Shown one piece after another: positions 6,286 to 64,000 of a stretch of DNA of 64,000 bases. Where the stretch lies: contig NC_092696.1 of the NCBI RefSeq assembly GCF_964275005.1, positions 26,682,572 to 26,746,571 on the forward strand. The letters are read 5' to 3'. The notes under the pieces were generated by a model. The model saw only the letters and a list, made by a program, of their open reading frames with translations. It was not told the origin of the DNA and did no database searches. The translations under genes were made by a program, and so were the position numbers. Every line of letters begins with the position of its first letter. Positions within the stretch are counted from its first letter, which is position 1. This DNA comes from Diadema setosum (taxonomy: Eukaryota; Echinodermata; Echinoidea; Diadematoida; Diadematidae).

Positions 6286-6289
6286 TTAA

Positions 6290-6847
6290 AGGGGACGCAA
6301 ACCCAAAGAGCAATGTGGATTGAGTAAAAGCATTAACATTAATAGAACACATCAGTGAAAGTTTGAGGAAAATCGGACAATCGATACAGAAGTTATGAAT
6401 TTTTTAAGTTTTGGTGTTGGAACCACTGGATGAGGAGACTACTAGAGGTTATGACGTATGAGCGAACAACAATATAAAGAAAATATAAAAGTAATTCCAC
6501 AAAAAATCACTTTTATAGCAAAATGAAAGAGTACTTGACTAACCGCTTTCAGAAAACAGTGGGAATAAGTGATACCCCTAACATATGTCAGTATTAAGTT
6601 CATGGAATGTGTAATTTTCATGAAAAATGAATTTCTATTGAATTCCCTTTATATTTTCTTCATGTTGTAGTCCTCTCATACGTCATAACCTCTAGTAGTC
6701 TCCTTACCCAGCAGTTCCAACACCAAAACTTTAAAAATTCATAACTTTTGCATCGATTGCCCGATTCTCCTCAAACTTTCACTGATGTGTTCTACTAATG
6801 TTACTGCTTTCACCCAATCCACATTGCTCTTTGGGTTTACGTTCCCT
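6290..6847. mobile_element. TTAA-flanked foldback MITE, family C copy 1
   Basis: Ends AGGGGACGCAAACCCAAAG and the matching right arm CTTTGGGTTTACGTTCCCT, each abutting TTAA. The arms are long: the CATCAGTGAAAGTTTGAGGA block on the left returns inverted near 6770. Confidence 0.85.
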
Positions 6848-6968
6848 TTAACATTCTATGATTTTCTGTTGTCCATTATAGAGTCCAAAGTTTTGATTTA
6901 GCAGTAAAGATGCTTTTGAAAATTCTGCAGCTGAAACAATAGTTAAAAACAAACAACAAAAGGTTTAA

Positions 6969-7751
6969 CCCTAACTAGGCCGGGCTATTTAGGTAGATCA
7001 TACAGCCGGGGGGGGGGGCCTCCCAGGCCCCCCCCCCCCCCCTCCAGATCTCGGCCGTCGACCACACGATCGCGACGAAAATTGGCACACACATTGCCTA
7101 TGATGTAATCTAAAGTATCACAAAGTTAAATCTTTAAAAAAATTATCATTTATGCTGAATTATGCTAATTTATGCATAATCATGCATGAAATCAGACAAT
7201 TTGGTATAAATCACTAAATAGAGCTCAAAATGGGCACATTTTTTATGTAAATGTTCTTTTTAGTGTCCTGAGCAAATATAAGAGAAAAAAATTGTGCCAT
7301 CAGAAAAAATTTCTAAAGTATTTTATTGTTTTTTGAATTTCTTATGTATTTCTTTGTTTTTTCGACTTTATGTTTTTCATTGTTTTTTCGATGAAACTTG
7401 TCCGCGACATTGTTCCGATCAAGAAAATATGTTATTGATTGATATTAATCAATAAAACCCAAAAATAATCATACTTTTATGAAATTTGCCTGTAAGCACA
7501 GTTTGCATTGAAATTGTACACGAACTCATGTTTTTGAGCAATTTTTGGTCTGACATGCACATACATATTTATGGGCAACTTCGGAACCACGCACCCGGGC
7601 ATTGCAAATTTGGTGTCAAAAGATGCGGGAGACTCAAAAGAAAAAAGTCATGAAACGTCGCGGCGATAGCTTTTCGCGTTAGCGATACATCGCGCGGAAC
7701 ATCGAGGGGGGGGGGGCCTCGGAGGCCCCCCCCCCCCCGGCCTAGTTAGGG
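6969..7751. mobile_element. piggyBac-like TTAA MITE, family B copy 1
   Basis: TTAA flanks at 6965-6968 and 7752-7755. The ends CCCTAACTAGGCCGGGC and GCCCGGCCTAGTTAGGG are exact reverse complements. Just inside each end is a G-run / short core / C-run hairpin (core CCTCCCAGG left, CCTCGGAGG right), then AGATCTCGGCC on the left and a GCGCGGAACATCGAG block on the right. The interior is AT-rich and non-coding. The TTAA target plus CCCTAA end suggests a piggyBac-type transposase; that class call is inference. Confidence 0.85.
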
Positions 7752-7928
7752 TTAATGAATCATTCACTATGATAAGTAAAAGTCATAAAAGTTATTTTTT
7801 TTAACACTTTACCTAACAATGAAAAGTTTAAAAAAATTGTAAAGGAAAAGGGAATGTCATAAAGGAAAAAAATCACAGACAAGCCACAAGAACGTGGTCT
7901 CTATGATTCGGCGAGTTAGCATTTTTAA

Positions 7929-22428: not shown

Positions 22429-23513
22429 GGCCCGAATTCACGAAGGTGGTACAAACGAAACCATGGTCTAAACCATGGACAAAAACCATGGAGCGCCAAG
22501 TGTCAAACGGAATATTTCGTTACGAAATTGGTCATTTCGTCGACAAAATGACTGTTTCGTTAACGAAATGTTAACTAAATGTTCATTTAGTTACAAAATG
22601 ATGTCATTTCTTTACAAATAATCATTTCATCGACGAAATGACTGATTTCGTAGCGAAATATCCCATGCGACACTTGGCATTCAATGGTTTTTGTCCATGG
22701 TTTAACCCTAAAGGGGCCGGGCTTTTTTGGCTATGCTCAGACCGGGGGGGGGGGGGGGGGCGGATTCCGCCCCCCCCCTGAGATCTCGGCCATCGGTGGT
22801 GCGATCGCGATGAAATTTTGCATGCGTGAGACCCGCGTCATAATCTACAAGATTGTGTTATAAGATTTTTTGAAACAATCAATTTCTAATTTTAATTAAT
22901 TAATTATGCAAATTAAGCTCAAGGTGATATTTTAGCTTAATTAAAAGCATTGAGAGTCTAATTTTTGATCTGTAAATCTGTTTTAGCATATTCAACAATT
23001 GTACATCACAAAAACTTCCAAAACTCATTTCAATTCTTATGTATTTTATTGTTTTCAGAATTTCTTATGTATTTCTTTGTTTTTCAACTTTTGTTTTTTC
23101 TTTGTTTTTTCATTGGAAATTGTCACTGACCACTTTTCTACCATAATTAGCACAAAATTAATCAATGAAAGTGATTAAATGTAAAAATAATCAGGTTTTT
23201 ATGCCTTTCATGACAGAGCACTGTTTTCCATAGGAAATGTACACAAAATCACAAAATTGTGCCCGTTTTGGAGCGACATTCCGTTACAAAAATGGGCGTG
23301 GCTTCGCAAAAGTATGCGCGGACGTTGCAAATTTGGTCTCAAAAGTTGCGCGAGACTTGAAACGAAGAAAGTCAAGAAGCCTCGCGATGAGGCCTTCTCG
23401 CGTTACAGAATTATAGCGCGAAACGTCGAGGGGGGGGGCGGATTCCGCCCCCCCCCCGGCCCTTTTAGGGTTAAACCATGGTTTCATTTGTACCACCTTC
23501 GTGAATTCGGGCC
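22429..23513. mobile_element. Foldback MITE, family A copy 3, split by a family B insertion
   Basis: Left arm 22429-22701 and right arm 23475-23513 carry the same ends as the copy at 293. The gap is a complete B element. It ends 99 bp past the EMC10 stop codon, so it is in or next to that gene's 3' UTR. Confidence 0.85.
22706..23470. mobile_element. piggyBac-like TTAA MITE, family B copy 2 (nested)
   Basis: TTAA at 22702-22705 and 23471-23474. Ends CCCTAAAGGGGCCGGGC and GGCCCTTTTAGGG (one mismatch). Both inner hairpins share the core CGGATTCCG between a G run and a C run. Interior collinear with 6969-7751. Confidence 0.85.
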
Positions 23514-59800: not shown

Positions 59801-62800
59801 GTATCATGGTAGACAAATCATTTTCCCAACCATCATTTTGCAGTCCATGCACAAAGCATGGCCGCGTTCACCCAGGGGTATTCTTTGGCGGCTGCGGAGA
59901 AGAAGGTTATCCTTGTGTCTGAGGAGGAGACTGTCATTCTTGTGGCAAACACCGATGGAACAGCATTTGAGGTAGATTTGAACAATTTGATTCTCACAAC
60001 TCTTCTTTAAAGGATTCTTAATTGTCCCCGCCGAACGAGTTCGAGCAGGGGACTATGAAACGGGCTCCGTACGTGTGTGTGTCCGTGTGTCCGTCCGTCC
60101 GTCCGTCCGTCCGTCCGTCTGTCCGTGTGTCCGTCCGTGTGTCCGTGTGTGCGTCCGTGTGTGATCAAAATGTTCAAAATGCTACTCCTTCGCCATTTCT
60201 AACCCGATTTTGATTCTGTTTGCTTTATATGATAGCACTACATGGGAGCTGTGAAACTTCTATACAAAATTTCAGTTGTGACCTTTGACCTTGACCTTTG
60301 ACCTATATTGTACATTTTGCTTCAAAATGCTACTCCTTCGCCATTTCTAACCCGATTTTGATTCCGTTTGCTTTATATGATGGCACTAGGTGAGGGCTTC
60401 AAAACTTCTACACAGAATTTTGACCTTTGACTTCTTTGACCTTTGACCTTGATTTTTGACCTATATTATACATTGCCTACAAAATGCTACTCCTTCGCCA
60501 TTTGTAACCCGATTACAATTCCGTTTGCTTTAAGTGATGGCACTAGGTGAGGGCTTCAAAACTCCTACACAGAATTTTGACCTTTGACTTCTTTGACCTT
60601 TGACCTTGATTTTTGACCTGTATTGTACATTTTCCTACCAAATGCTACTCCTTCGCCATTTCTAACCCGATTTCGATTCCGTTTGCTTTATGTGATGGCA
60701 CTAGGTGAGGGCTTCAAAACTTCTACACAGAATTTTGACCTTTGACTTCTTTGACCTTTGACCTTGATTTTTTGTACCTATATTGTACATTGGCTACAAA
60801 ATGCTACTTCCGGCGGGGACATATATTACGCACCGCGTAATTTCTACTTTTCCTTGTTGACATCTCGATTGGGCAGTGTTCATGTTATACATGTTTGCCT
60901 TGGTGCTGCATTTATGCCTTTCAAGCAAGCAGCCTGCATTCAGTTATTGTGTGTATCCCTTCAGATCACTGCACATCAAATGACTCACATGGCTGACGAC
61001 CCCCCCCCCCCCCCCTCCCGTTCTTATGCAATATCCCAGAGTCCCCGTTTTACCTGTGTGGATGCTATTGCACCGTCAAGCTGTCTGACACAAATGACCA
61101 GTTAATATGCTGTTATGTCCTCACTGGTGTAGAGCTTTCTGATTGGCTAAAGGATATCATCAACCTATGGTATTAATCAGAAAAGTAAGAAATATGTAAA
61201 TTGGTTGGACTTTTAGATTAAGGTTACACAAAAAAGCATTGATCTGTAACTGAAAGATGTGAGCTGTGTTCACATCTATAGTAGATATCAGGATCATATT
61301 TTCTGTTTGAAGTGGAGCAATGTATGATTTTATCCTAAGAATACTGTTGATCACAGATTGTGACTTCTTAATTGTTTTCAGACCCTAGAGGAAAAATGCC
61401 CCTACTTCAGAGTAAAGGGATAACTGAATTCCCCGTCCTGAAGATTTTGCTTGAAGTAATGTTGGTATTAACAGACTGATCTTAGTCAAGGTGTATGCAC
61501 ACGATGCCCAATGCGAAAGCAGGAACAGCTCATTTTGGGCACACAGTTGAAATAAAATGAGTGGAGTGTGACCATCTCTTCCTAATTATATTTGCATTTA
61601 TTCATCTAATTTGACACGCATGGACCTGTTCACGATGTCATCTGCATTCATTTTGTTTTTTTGGTCTCATCTTTGGCTTGAACAGCAAACAATCATCACA
61701 GTTCATCCCACAGACGTCACCAATGTGGAGTATTTTTCGATCGGCCTGGACTCATACTTGGTGTTTTCTAGGGATGCCGGGGACCCAATCGGGGAAAAGT
61801 CTCCAATCTACCTCTGGAGTGCTACAGGTTGGTGTCAAAGGTCATATGAAAGCAAAGTGATTGTTGAGTTATCTGTTGTTTATCTGTTCTTTATTTGTTG
61901 TATGTGAATGAAATACAAGATGATGAAGCTTTAACGCGGCATATATGGGGAAAAAAAAAACGCTGACACACACCAATTACCAAAGCTTTTAAATCATCAT
62001 TCTTTAATTGTTCAAACACTAAGGTATTTATCTAAAGGAGAATAATTTCCAGGATTACATTATACCTGAACTGAGGGATTGCAGCTACATAAATATAACA
62101 CATCAGCAAAGTTTTGAGTAAAATCGGACAAGACTTTCAAAATATATGAATTTTCACAGTTTTAGTGCAGCCATTGCTGGATGAGAAGACTACCACAGCT
62201 CACGACAATACATATGGACAAGGATATAAAGAAAATCTGAAGAAAATTCAGAATGTTTTCTTTTTTTTTTTCTAACATACAGAACACTTGCCTTTTCAGA
62301 GGTGGGAGAATTATGATATTATCCTTAAAGGTCCTGTTTACCTTTGGGAGCATTGATTTAACCCTAAAAAGACTGGGCTATTTTGGTAGCTCGAAAGACT
62401 GGGGGGGGGGGGCCTAAAGGGCCCCCCCTTAAGATCTCGGCCGTGGATCGCGCGATCGCCGTTGAAATTTGCACAATGGTAGTGTGCGATATAATCTACA
62501 AGATCGTATATTTAAATTTTCCAAAATAGTCTTCTTTTATTTTATTTTGATTAATTATGCTAATTTATGCGAGAAATCAGACCTTTTTTTATCTAAATCA
62601 GTAAATAAAGCTCCAAAAGTGCTCATTTTTGGTCTAGATATTCTGTGTAGCATTCTTAGCAAATGTACTTGAAAAAAAATTCGGTATCAAAATTAATTTC
62701 TTATTTATTTTATTGTTTTATGAATTTCTTATGTATTTCTTTGTTTTTTCGACCTTTTGTTTTTGTTGTTTTTTTCAGCAAAATTTGTGGCAGACCCTTT

Positions 62801-63711
62801 TTGAAGCATAATACCACTAAAACAAATTGATTTTAGCCATTGAGAGTAAAAATAAGCATATTTATATGAACCATGTGATAAACTCAATTTGTATTGACTT
62901 TGTACACAAAATCGCATTTTTGAGCCATTTTCGGTCTCACATGCATGTACAAAAAAGTTATGTAACTTCAGAACCGTACCCCCGGGGGTCACAAATTTGG
63001 TGTCAAAATGTGCGGGAAACTCGAAAGAAAAAAGTCACAGAGCATCGCGGCGAGAGTATTGCGTGTTGCTGAGTAATCGCGCAAAATGTCGAGGGGGGGG
63101 GCCTTTTAGGCCCCCCCCCCCAGTCTTTTTAGGGTTAAAAATTGTTCAAGATATCACATTTGATGCATATGTGTAGGTCTGTTAAATCACAAAACATCCT
63201 ATCATATGAAAGTTTTACAATAAAGCATGAAATATAAGGAGATATCAATGTTTTCCTCAATAAACCATAACTGCAGACAGGTTTAGTCTGAGAACATTTT
63301 TACTGTAATTACATGTTGTATGGTTCATATTTTGCATATGTTACAATACTTACAACGATTATACGTATTCAAATTTTTACAGTTGTTGTTTTTATCCGTA
63401 ACTCACATGTTAGAACTATTTAAAGTACTAGTGCTGGGTTTTTGTTTCATCTGCACATGATAAATTATGCCTTTAAGATATGTCAGGAACAAGTTCAGGG
63501 AATGTTTACTTGCTGAAAAAAATGAATTTGTACTTCTTTGTTTGGCAGGTAAAAAGTTCAACCTACGGCAGAGGGTGCAGACATATGGTGCTCAGAAAGT
63601 CCAAACCTTTGAGATCACTGGACGCTACTATATCCTGATGGTCAACAAGAATAATGCCTCCACCATCTGGCAGTACAATACTAGACAGGCCCAGTTTGTG
63701 ACCTTTCAGAG
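50874..63711 (+). CDS. Secreted EAR/EPTP-repeat protein, 5' part (six exons; continues off the right edge)
   Basis: Exons 50874-51064, 57972-58090, 59198-59386, 59844-59971, 61686-61827 and 63549-63711 have GT-AG borders and continuous phase, giving 310 residues so far. Residues about 10-31 form a signal peptide (LFILAFFAIVFFRSTAG). A charged, helix-prone stretch follows (ISERLAAAVERELQDHVRR). R77-H-R-R80 fits a furin site. From about residue 105 there are EAR/EPTP repeats: FEIVGEFLSVAGDMTSFAIGQKTFLVYN, then TVILVANTD, then EYFSIGLDSYLVFSRDAG with SPIYLWSATGKKF, then ETGRYY-like FEITGRYYILMVNKN with STIWQYN. Seven such repeats build a beta-propeller in TSPEAR and LGI proteins, used in extracellular binding. 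No laminin-G/TSPN domain is encoded before the repeats, unlike TSPEAR, and no LRRs, unlike LGI. The link of exon 1 across 6.9 kb rests on phase (CG|G) and the signal peptide; exons 3-6 are secure. Confidence 0.82.
52391..55583. mobile_element. 3.2-kb non-coding element with GACGGGACGGA repeats (family S)
   Basis: GGGTCTGATCCAAAAAT at the left faces ATTTTTGGATCAGACCC at the right. GACGGGACGG or its complement appears at least eight times, with decayed versions. The right 1.7 kb is a tandem duplication of an approximately 846-bp unit: 'GTTATAAAACTGTGTT', 'CCCATTCGTTTTGTACATAG' and 'CCATGGAAACAAAACA' all recur at this spacing. An internal copy of the end sits at 54715. No long frame. Confidence 0.65.
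55836..55994. mobile_element. Short MITE (family O) in the EAR gene intron 1
   Basis: GGGAGGTGTTTCATCAACG faces CGTTGATGAAACACCCCCC, with inner GTCAGCACCGACAA / TTGTCAGTGCCGAC arms; about 159 bp. Confidence 0.8.
56490..57600 (-). mobile_element. Decayed LINE reverse transcriptase fragment
   Basis: On the minus strand: LLDTAKPFDCVWHTG (about 57570-57515, like the DxxKAFDxVWH box), FRQGRILSPLLYDIFIDELI (about 57380-57320, the RQG-LSPLLF box), then IVLADDVGPIASL near 57260-57220 (catalytic ADD). LVCPHFEYCCTIWEPF and NIKKIQALQ lie at about 56620-56540, the C-terminal PHLEY-xxxVW-P region. Stops and frame changes break it. A GGATCC-type MITE remnant lies inside at about 56880-57005. Confidence 0.8.
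58707..59145. mobile_element. Family U element, uninterrupted copy
   Basis: TAAGCCAGATTGGGGTTCC faces GCTAACTCCAAACTGGCC. In the EAR gene intron 2, 52 bp before the exon 3 acceptor. Collinear with 48374-49231 without the D insert. Confidence 0.7.
60024..60820. mobile_element. Element with (TCCG)n and tandem units carrying TGACCTTTGACC motifs (family P)
   Basis: GTCCCCGCCG at the left faces CGGCGGGGAC at the right. (TCCG)n/(TGTG) covers about 60078-60165. Then four tandem units of about 148-160 bp begin AAAATGCTACTCCTTCGCCA near 60175, 60323, 60480 and 60639, plus a fifth start at 60799. Each unit holds one or two TGACCTTTGACC-type blocks. In the EAR gene intron 4. Confidence 0.8.
62095..62340. 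repeat. Family C fragment
   Basis: Blocks ACATCAGCAAAGTTTTGAG, AAAATCGGACAAG and GCTGGATGAGAAGACTACCA match the left arm of 6290-6847. Right arm lost. Confidence 0.6.
62362..63134. mobile_element. piggyBac-like TTAA MITE, family B copy 3
   Basis: TTAA at 62358-62361 and 63135-63138. Ends CCCTAAAAAGACTGGGC and CCCAGTCTTTTTAGGG are complementary. Inner hairpin cores CCTAAAGG (left) and CCTTTTAGG (right) lie between G and C runs. In the EAR gene intron 5. Confidence 0.85.
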
Positions 63712-63739
63712 GTCAGTTATTCTTGTGCTAAATTGCATA

Positions 63740-64000
63740 CTTTACGCTCTGCGTGCCTCGTTTGCACGCTGGACTCGGTCAATGGCATGCCAATTAAGTT
63801 GCATATTCTGCTCAATTGCACAACCCCGCCCAAACCGATCAATAAATTGCCAAATGACACAGTGCAATGAAAGCATTTATCACAATTCTATTCCTGTCAC
63901 ACGTACATGTTGTAGCTTGCATTTTATGTAGTGATTAGCTATGAAGCAGTGTTCCCAACTGGGTTTGCGAGTAAAGTCTAAGTCTTTGTCACTGTTTTAG
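63740..64000 (+). repeat. Dispersed repeat family V, copy 2 (runs to the edge)
   Basis: Collinear with 1268-1515, same orientation. Begins about 30 bp after the last visible EAR exon. Confidence 0.6.

Follow-up and report, generated by a model that had tools for sequence, protein, structure and literature searches.

Matched, subfamily-specific ends in a family of TTAA elements of Diadema setosum

Three family B elements in the window

The window, a stretch of 64,000 nucleotides of the Diadema setosum genome (C12:26682572-26746571), holds three elements of one family, here called family B, all in one shared orientation. As an earlier note on this DNA had claimed, they lie at the positions given below, each between TTAA on both sides (3/3 copies), with a common interior and differing tips. 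From TTAA to TTAA they measure 773-791 bp. Kolobok/T2-type elements also use a TTAA target, with a different starting end motif. The parts of the three elements, in window coordinates, are as follows.

6965..7755, + strand: copy 1, TTAA to TTAA; subfamily S1, tip CTAGGCC
6969..6984, + strand: copy 1 left tip, CCCTAACTAGGCC followed by GGG, with GCCGGG at bp 11-16
7002..7007, + strand: copy 1 inner tip repeat (TIP'), directly before the left palindrome
7008..7042, + strand: copy 1 left palindrome, G11-CCTCCCAGG-C15
7706..7738, - strand: copy 1 right palindrome, on the top strand G11-CCTCGGAGG-C13
7739..7751, - strand: copy 1 right tip, CCCTAACTAGGCC reverse-complemented
22702..23474, + strand: copy 2, TTAA to TTAA; subfamily S2; from bp 5 onward AAAGGGGCC on the left and AAAAGGGCC on the right
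22706..22721, + strand: copy 2 left tip, CCCTAAAGGGGCC followed by GGG
22739..22743, + strand: copy 2 inner tip repeat, AGACC
22744..22778, + strand: copy 2 left palindrome, G17-CGGATTCCG-C9
23430..23457, - strand: copy 2 right palindrome, on the top strand G9-CGGATTCCG-C10
23458..23470, - strand: copy 2 right tip, CCCTAAAAGGGCC reverse-complemented
62358..63138, + strand: copy 3, TTAA to TTAA; subfamily S3; AAAAAGACT from bp 5 at both ends
62362..62377, + strand: copy 3 left tip, CCCTAAAAAGACT followed by GGG
62394..62400, + strand: copy 3 inner tip repeat, AAAGACT, exactly the last seven tip bases
62401..62428, + strand: copy 3 left palindrome, G12-CCTAAAGGG-C7
63093..63121, - strand: copy 3 right palindrome, on the top strand G9-CCTTTTAGG-C11
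63122..63134, - strand: copy 3 right tip, CCCTAAAAAGACT reverse-complemented
7046..7056, 22781-22791 and 62432-62442, + strand: conserved left subterminal AGATCTCGGCC, in all three copies

Each window element opens with TTAACCCTAA and closes with its reverse complement. Read inward, the right end runs TTAA-CCCTA-variable tip-G run-core-C run-TCGAC box, and the left end runs TTAA-CCCTA-variable tip-GGG-linker-second tip-motif copy-G run-core-C run-AGATCTCGGCC. In each element there are three copies of the tip motif and two palindromes, each palindrome with a core of 7-9 bp within G-run/C-run arms. The tip motif, at bp 11-16 from the element end, reads N-C-Y-G-G-G: among the ten subfamilies described below, C-Y stands at bp 12-13 in 18/20 end consensuses and is followed by G's (the exceptions are the right end of S3b and the left end of S8), and the inner left repeat ends in C-Y in 10/10. 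The linker belongs to the left end only and is GGGCTWTTT in 9/10 subfamilies, with TTTTTT in S9 instead. Since the variable tip and the inner repeat lie on either side of this left-only linker, the tips have changed in place. The outer CCCTA is retained, as are the subterminal AGATC and TCGAC boxes in most copies read.

After CCCTAA, the left tips of copies 1 to 3 read CTAGGCC, AGGGGCC and AAAGACT and the right tips, reverse-complemented, CTAGGCC, AAGGGCC and AAAGACT, which confirms the single mismatch claimed for copy 2. The eleventh base, the C in GGGC, had also been counted as matching; the right ends have G there in 3/3 copies, because the linker at that point belongs to the left end alone. 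The inner hairpin cores are as previously given, read on the top strand. Compared with shuffled sequences, five of the six window hairpins fold with z of -2.4 to -4.0; the weakest, the left hairpin of copy 3, has a z of -1.04 and 53/200 shuffles fold equally well.

Other features lie close to these elements. Copy 2 is placed between the arms of an inverted repeat (22429-22474 / 23468-23513) and is apparently nested in another element. A large inverted repeat with 229-nt arms, 88% complementary and spaced by 108 nt, occupies 6286-6851, immediately left of copy 1. At 63464-63931 there is a frame with a sub-cut-off match to Pfam EPTP (18.7 of 21 bits, E 0.0018), possibly a gene fragment. The window is rich in copies, with three where 2899 exact left ends over 912.7 Mb would lead one to expect ~0.2, although this may mean nothing, the left-end count being a lower bound and the finding having been chosen for its copies.

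Tip types and interior subfamilies across the genome

The exact left-end pattern TTAACCCT-N9-GGNYTNTTT matched the genome 2899 times versus 2 for a control, and the exact right-end pattern TTAACCCT-N9-G10 (at least 10 G) matched 2160 times versus 8 for its reversed control. Elements are typically 760-800 bp in size. Ten random 10-kb stretches of the genome contained no copy by BLAST or by end pattern, and copies were therefore drawn from pattern and similarity searches. Forty C1 copies were chosen among 100 listed matches so as to span tip types, one of which (L073) was dropped when its orientation failed; L002-L030 were retrieved with a query containing the tips of copy 1; and the S2 set includes 20 from the best 40 of 2045 candidates for the interior of copy 2. 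In the latter set 21/25 copies were usable, the other four lacking one readable end. TTAA at pattern-found copies is given by the search pattern itself; for 20 S2 copies recovered with an interior-only query, TTAACCC was present at 18 left and 16 right ends.

A few tip types account for most of the 100 listed left ends and of the 74 right ends set against them. The consensus tips (bp 5-13) of the ten subfamilies are given below.

S1: left AACTAGGCC, right identical
S2: left AAAGGGGCC, right AAAAGGGCC
S3: left AAAAAGACT, right identical
S3b: left AAAGAGACT, right AAAAAGACG (two poorly kept copies)
S4: left AACTTACCT, right identical
S5: left AATCAGGCT, right identical
S6: left ATTCTAACT, right identical
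S7: left AACCAGGCC, right AAAAAGGCC
S8: left ATTTCCATT, right ATGTCCACT (one copy)
S9: left AATCCCACC, right GTTCCCACC

In a maximum-likelihood tree of 62 of the 72 interiors (30 of them S1; 10 omitted), S1, S2, S3, S3b, S4, S5, S6, S7 and S9 form clades with 100/99-100/100 support. The tip types therefore define subfamilies of the interior tree, nine of them on well-supported clades, and tips are fixed per interior subfamily with few exceptions. The exceptions are L071, which has an S4-type right tip, a damaged left end and an interior outside S4; L046, whose interior is without kin; and L050, with the right tip ATTCGGGCC on a long branch within the S2 clade. S2 is very young: the interior of copy 2 shares 99-100% identity with each of the best 40 among 2045 candidates, and mean divergence among 22 copies is 0.48%.

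On C1, all 100 listed left-end matches were set against 74/100 right-end matches (to 29.51 Mb). Among the 45 left/right pairs obtained, 31 are identical over nine positions and 44 have two mismatches or fewer and the same type; the one exceptional pair, C1:20191152, has 4/9 mismatches and is untypable. A further 29 right and 55 left C1 ends were left unpaired because the patterns are exact.

The left and right consensus tips of the ten subfamilies differ on average at 0.9/9 positions; between subfamilies, left tips differ at 4.6 and right tips at 4.8. Left-right identity within a subfamily thus exceeds left-left identity between subfamilies, and the view of the earlier note that the matching of ends within an element goes beyond independent decay is supported. 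None of 100,000 random re-pairings was as close as the true left/right pairs, a figure that is only indicative because the subfamilies share ancestry. Moreover, the inner left repeat co-varies with the tip, its last 4 nt showing 8/40 mismatches versus 18.9 when re-paired (P 5e-5). Fixed left/right mismatches of the consensuses fall at bp 5-8 in seven cases out of nine and at bp 9-13 in two, a weak contrast (P 0.07 for ten subfamilies; 0.014 without S3b and S8), and a mismatch at bp 8 is tolerated in S2, S7 and S3b.

Position 8 of S6 is paired at both ends, exact pairs comprising 4 T/T, 16 C/C and 0 mixed. The T group consists of 17 left-T ends from C1-C3, 4 of which lie within 1 kb of an exact right-T end and 0 of a right-C end; the C group was scored on C1 up to 29.51 Mb, where 16 of 19 left-C ends pair with right-C and 0 with right-T. 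Genome-wide, an exact right-T end occurs within 1 kb of 11/82 left-T ends. Most of the older T group is unscorable, because 12/17 lack any exact right end, T or C, within 2.5 kb. One S6 copy, L079, is mixed, with T on the left and C plus a further change on the right. Taken together, the ends were coupled when subfamilies arose. Tip and palindrome do not always change together: S2 and S5 have a core in common and different tips, and likewise S6 and S8. The core centre on the top strand is T at both ends in 6/10 subfamilies (S2, S4, S5, S6, S7 and S8).

Several arrangements of neighbouring elements were seen among the loci retrieved. Complete copies abut in end-to-end arrays, apparently with one common TTAA, at C1:23083840-23085396 (G000), C18:35884192-35885753 and L022:712-2277. 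At L004:1156-2390 a CTAGGCC-type copy is nested within an element with AAAAAGACT tips. Another TTAA family, a 93-bp palindromic element of the TTAACCCGTTGAGGACG type, occurs at L036:7485-7577, L009:3262-3354, L030:788-880 and L030:1038-1130, the two in L030 being near each other.

Behaviour of the two ends within subfamilies

There is hardly any sign of ongoing end-to-end copying, and new mutations are mostly one-ended. In S1 the left core is CCTCCCAGG in 30/30 copies and the right core is CCTCCGAGG in 27/30, the other three carrying another sequence, and no core in these 30 copies has been swapped to the sequence of the other end. Tip changes, present in 3/30 S1 copies, are all one-sided, and homopolymer run length at one end shows no correlation with that at the other (rho 0.07, 28/30 S1 copies). 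The left/right difference of S2 at bp 8 is kept in 21/21 copies read at both ends, as is the mismatch of S7 at bp 7-8 in 3/3, and one S2 copy (L114) has lost a G of its left tip. Altered cores among the 21 S2 copies number 10 on the left and 4 on the right, with 2 copies altered at both ends where 1.9 are expected under independence (Fisher P 1.0); an identical core change at both ends was found in 1/21 (L061).

No copy-level homogenisation was detectable, and we reject conversion at the level of single copies on the basis of S1 (30 copies) and S2 (21 copies), in which mismatches are inherited and run lengths are uncorrelated. The earlier note had suggested end-to-end copying inside single copies. 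This is not supported, as the ends mutate independently within subfamilies and fixed left/right differences survive; moreover, that note had itself named tips fixed per interior subfamily as the outcome that would speak against its stronger reading, and this is the outcome observed.

The left core of L103 and the right core of L079 are the sequence of the other end in inverted frame, which either copying or a flip of the hairpin loop would give. Among 19 young S2 copies with both ends readable, 12 of the 38 hairpin cores have changed, 8 on the left and 4 on the right, a rate far above the ~0.5% divergence of the interior; slippage, template switching or assembly error in the G/C runs could account for this. 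Such G/C-run hairpins are hard to sequence, and assembly error may underlie part of the core variation.

Proposed recognition by a transposase and other readings

We consider it probable that family B elements are non-autonomous piggyBac-type TTAA elements whose ends co-diverge with the specificity of a transposase. MITEs of the piggyBac superfamily are described as having a CC[C/T]T terminal motif, TIRs of 12-19 bp and a size usually <500 bp (PMC2872659). Family B has CCCT at both ends and a TIR of ~13-16 bp in matched subfamilies, together with the TTAA on both sides; its typical size is above the usual MITE limit, and therefore the label MITE is weakened more than the piggyBac assignment. 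By layout, its ends are of the piggyBac type, with a tip motif and a palindrome at both ends and an asymmetric insertion carrying a duplicated motif. In piggyBac of Trichoplusia ni it is the right end that has an insertion and duplicated motif relative to the left (PMC7351741). The likeness extends to TTAA, to a tip motif accompanied at both ends by a palindromic internal repeat, and to one asymmetric duplicated-motif end; piggyBac differs in being autonomous and in its single 19-bp palindrome, and homopolymer hairpin arms are unmentioned in the part of that account drawn on here (PMC7351741). In piggyBat of Myotis, a motif at bp 11-16 is bound by the core domain and an imperfect palindrome 3 bp further on by two CRDs, an order of parts which resembles that of family B; the palindromes of piggyBat are described for the left end only, and it has three spaced repeats (PMC11707139).

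By position and layout, family B can be mapped onto these modules, and we infer by analogy that its sites bind a piggyBac transposase, shifts in whose specificity drive the change. One putative contact site would be the tip motif at bp 11-16, present in both tips and, past the short insert, in a third copy inside the left end; the other would be the neighbouring palindrome, with its core within G-run/C-run arms. If both ends are gripped by one transposase, a change in recognition would have to reach every site of the same protein domain, such that a change in core-domain specificity would be met at three motif sites and a change in the CRDs at four palindrome half-sites. Each successful change would then found a subfamily, which amplifies with its tip pair fixed. 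A division of modules as in piggyBat would explain why the palindrome arms change in fours with the centre not following, and why 7/9 fixed left/right mismatches fall at bp 5-8. Counting against recognition of this kind, the paired S6 change at bp 8 is not required by recognition at bp 11-16 alone, and within a subfamily the left and right cores agree even though single copies often have altered ones.

An alternative is rare end-to-end copying in founders, by gene conversion or hairpin template switching, after which a subfamily would inherit a matched pair. We regard this as unlikely. It would account for the S6 change with no mixed exact pairs and for the cores of S2, S4, S5, S6, S7 and S8, which read the same at both ends as direct repeats, and L061, with the same core change at both ends, is in its favour; so are the inverted-frame cores of L103 and L079, for which a loop flip is equivalent. 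However, fixed mismatches persist (S2 bp 8, S7 bp 7-8, and the S1 core in 30 copies), double core changes in S2 occur as expected by chance and S1 run lengths are uncorrelated. Moreover, a tract of tip plus hairpin would transfer or delete the left-only linker, and none of the subfamily consensuses obtained shows that. A more specific form, in which the G-run/core/C-run hairpins are template-switch points where founders copy the core directly from end to end, with the tip copied or selected afterwards, appears rather improbable. It fits the six cores that are identical in direct orientation, as well as the paired change in S6 and the frequent alteration of young cores, and given the inherited mismatches such copying must be rare. 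If true, new matched end pairs would arise in few steps, with a faster shift to a new transposase; founder-level copying in general would show the origin of matched ends.

Wholesale capture, in which an element nests into another TTAA element whose outer ends take over, is known as a mode of assembly for the coral CMITE-IN (PMC2872659), and nested and adjoining copies are present here (L004, L022). Nevertheless, the left linker survives in 9/10 subfamilies, the outer CCCTA has been kept, and so have the AGATC/TCGAC boxes in most copies read; therefore only short modules changed, and we hold capture to be very unlikely. A further reading is selection on base-pairing between the ends, as fold-back DNA or RNA, to maintain their complementarity: every hairpin is self-complementary and a G-run would pair with a C-run across the ends, but the T centres that both ends have on one strand in 6/10 subfamilies would make a T:T mismatch, and the stem would be interrupted by the left linker. 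The T centres therefore disfavour such pairing, which we judge highly improbable. Selection for pairing ends, as raised in the earlier note, stands in the sense of matched recognition sites and falls in the sense of base-pairing. It is extremely unlikely that there is no coupling at all and that tips match only by descent of each subfamily from one matched-end element. Tips are plainly inherited within subfamilies and changes are mostly one-sided, yet without coupling the left/right difference should at least equal the 4.6-4.8/9 seen between subfamilies, and it is 0.9/9.

Returning to recognition by a piggyBac-type transposase, such enzymes are present in the genome, with 38 PF13843 profile matches in the assembly, some of which are pieces of one locus and none of which lies within the window. 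Flanks of 11 PF13843 loci contained no TTAACCCTAA in the scanned orientation, and some pieces may stop before the true element ends. As no family B tip was found at these 11 loci, cross-mobilisation is only inferred. A recent piggyBac on C5 and C11 was rejected as a partner, since it has another end (TTAACCCATCCACG plus a palindrome). This piggyBac has 578-aa open frames, its flanking regions (L081-L084; C5:27339300-27344350 and C11:31494563-31499613) are 98.6% and 99.7% identical between C5 and C11, and one of its ends has TTAACCCATCCACGTCTC followed by a palindrome with 8-bp arms.

TTAA MITEs with a conserved interior and family-specific matched ends are already in print as the CMITEs of Acropora corals, in which the TIRs vary more between families than the interior does, and the TIRs match within families I-III and less so, at the outermost bases only, in IV-VI (PMC2872659). 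The earlier remark that no named mechanism was known for this in TTAA elements was therefore too strong. Family B likewise has an interior conserved above its TIRs between subfamilies, with TIRs matched within, and shares with CMITEs the TTAA target, CC[C/T]T-type ends, family-specific TIRs and tandem arrays; for CMITEs, the use of several piggyBac transposases has also been proposed (PMC2872659). CMITEs are ~100 bp long with TIRs of 13-14 bp, whereas family B is typically 760-800 bp, and family B differs, as compared by description, in its G/C-run palindromes, third left copy of the tip motif and at least nine subfamilies (PMC2872659). A literature search with TTAACCCTAA found no paper, and at title level searches on TIR conversion or coevolution, concerted evolution and poly-G hairpin MITEs found no title on matched-end subfamilies among those listed, which included titles on the foldback elements Tetris and Galileo.

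In summary, the matched ends of family B most likely reflect known biology, seen here with unusual clarity, and not a new mechanism of copying. Over the CMITEs, the case is larger and better resolved, adding the third motif copy, G/C-run palindromes often altered when young, and nine or more subfamilies. The piggyBac structure paper describes the asymmetric end with a duplicated motif as puzzling, and family B provides a further example. Moreover, family B, with an interior backbone shared by at least nine subfamilies and with three motif sites and four half-sites changing together, is a natural record of recognition-site change, in which the evolution of transposase specificity becomes readable from sequence and the tolerated left/right mismatches are visible.
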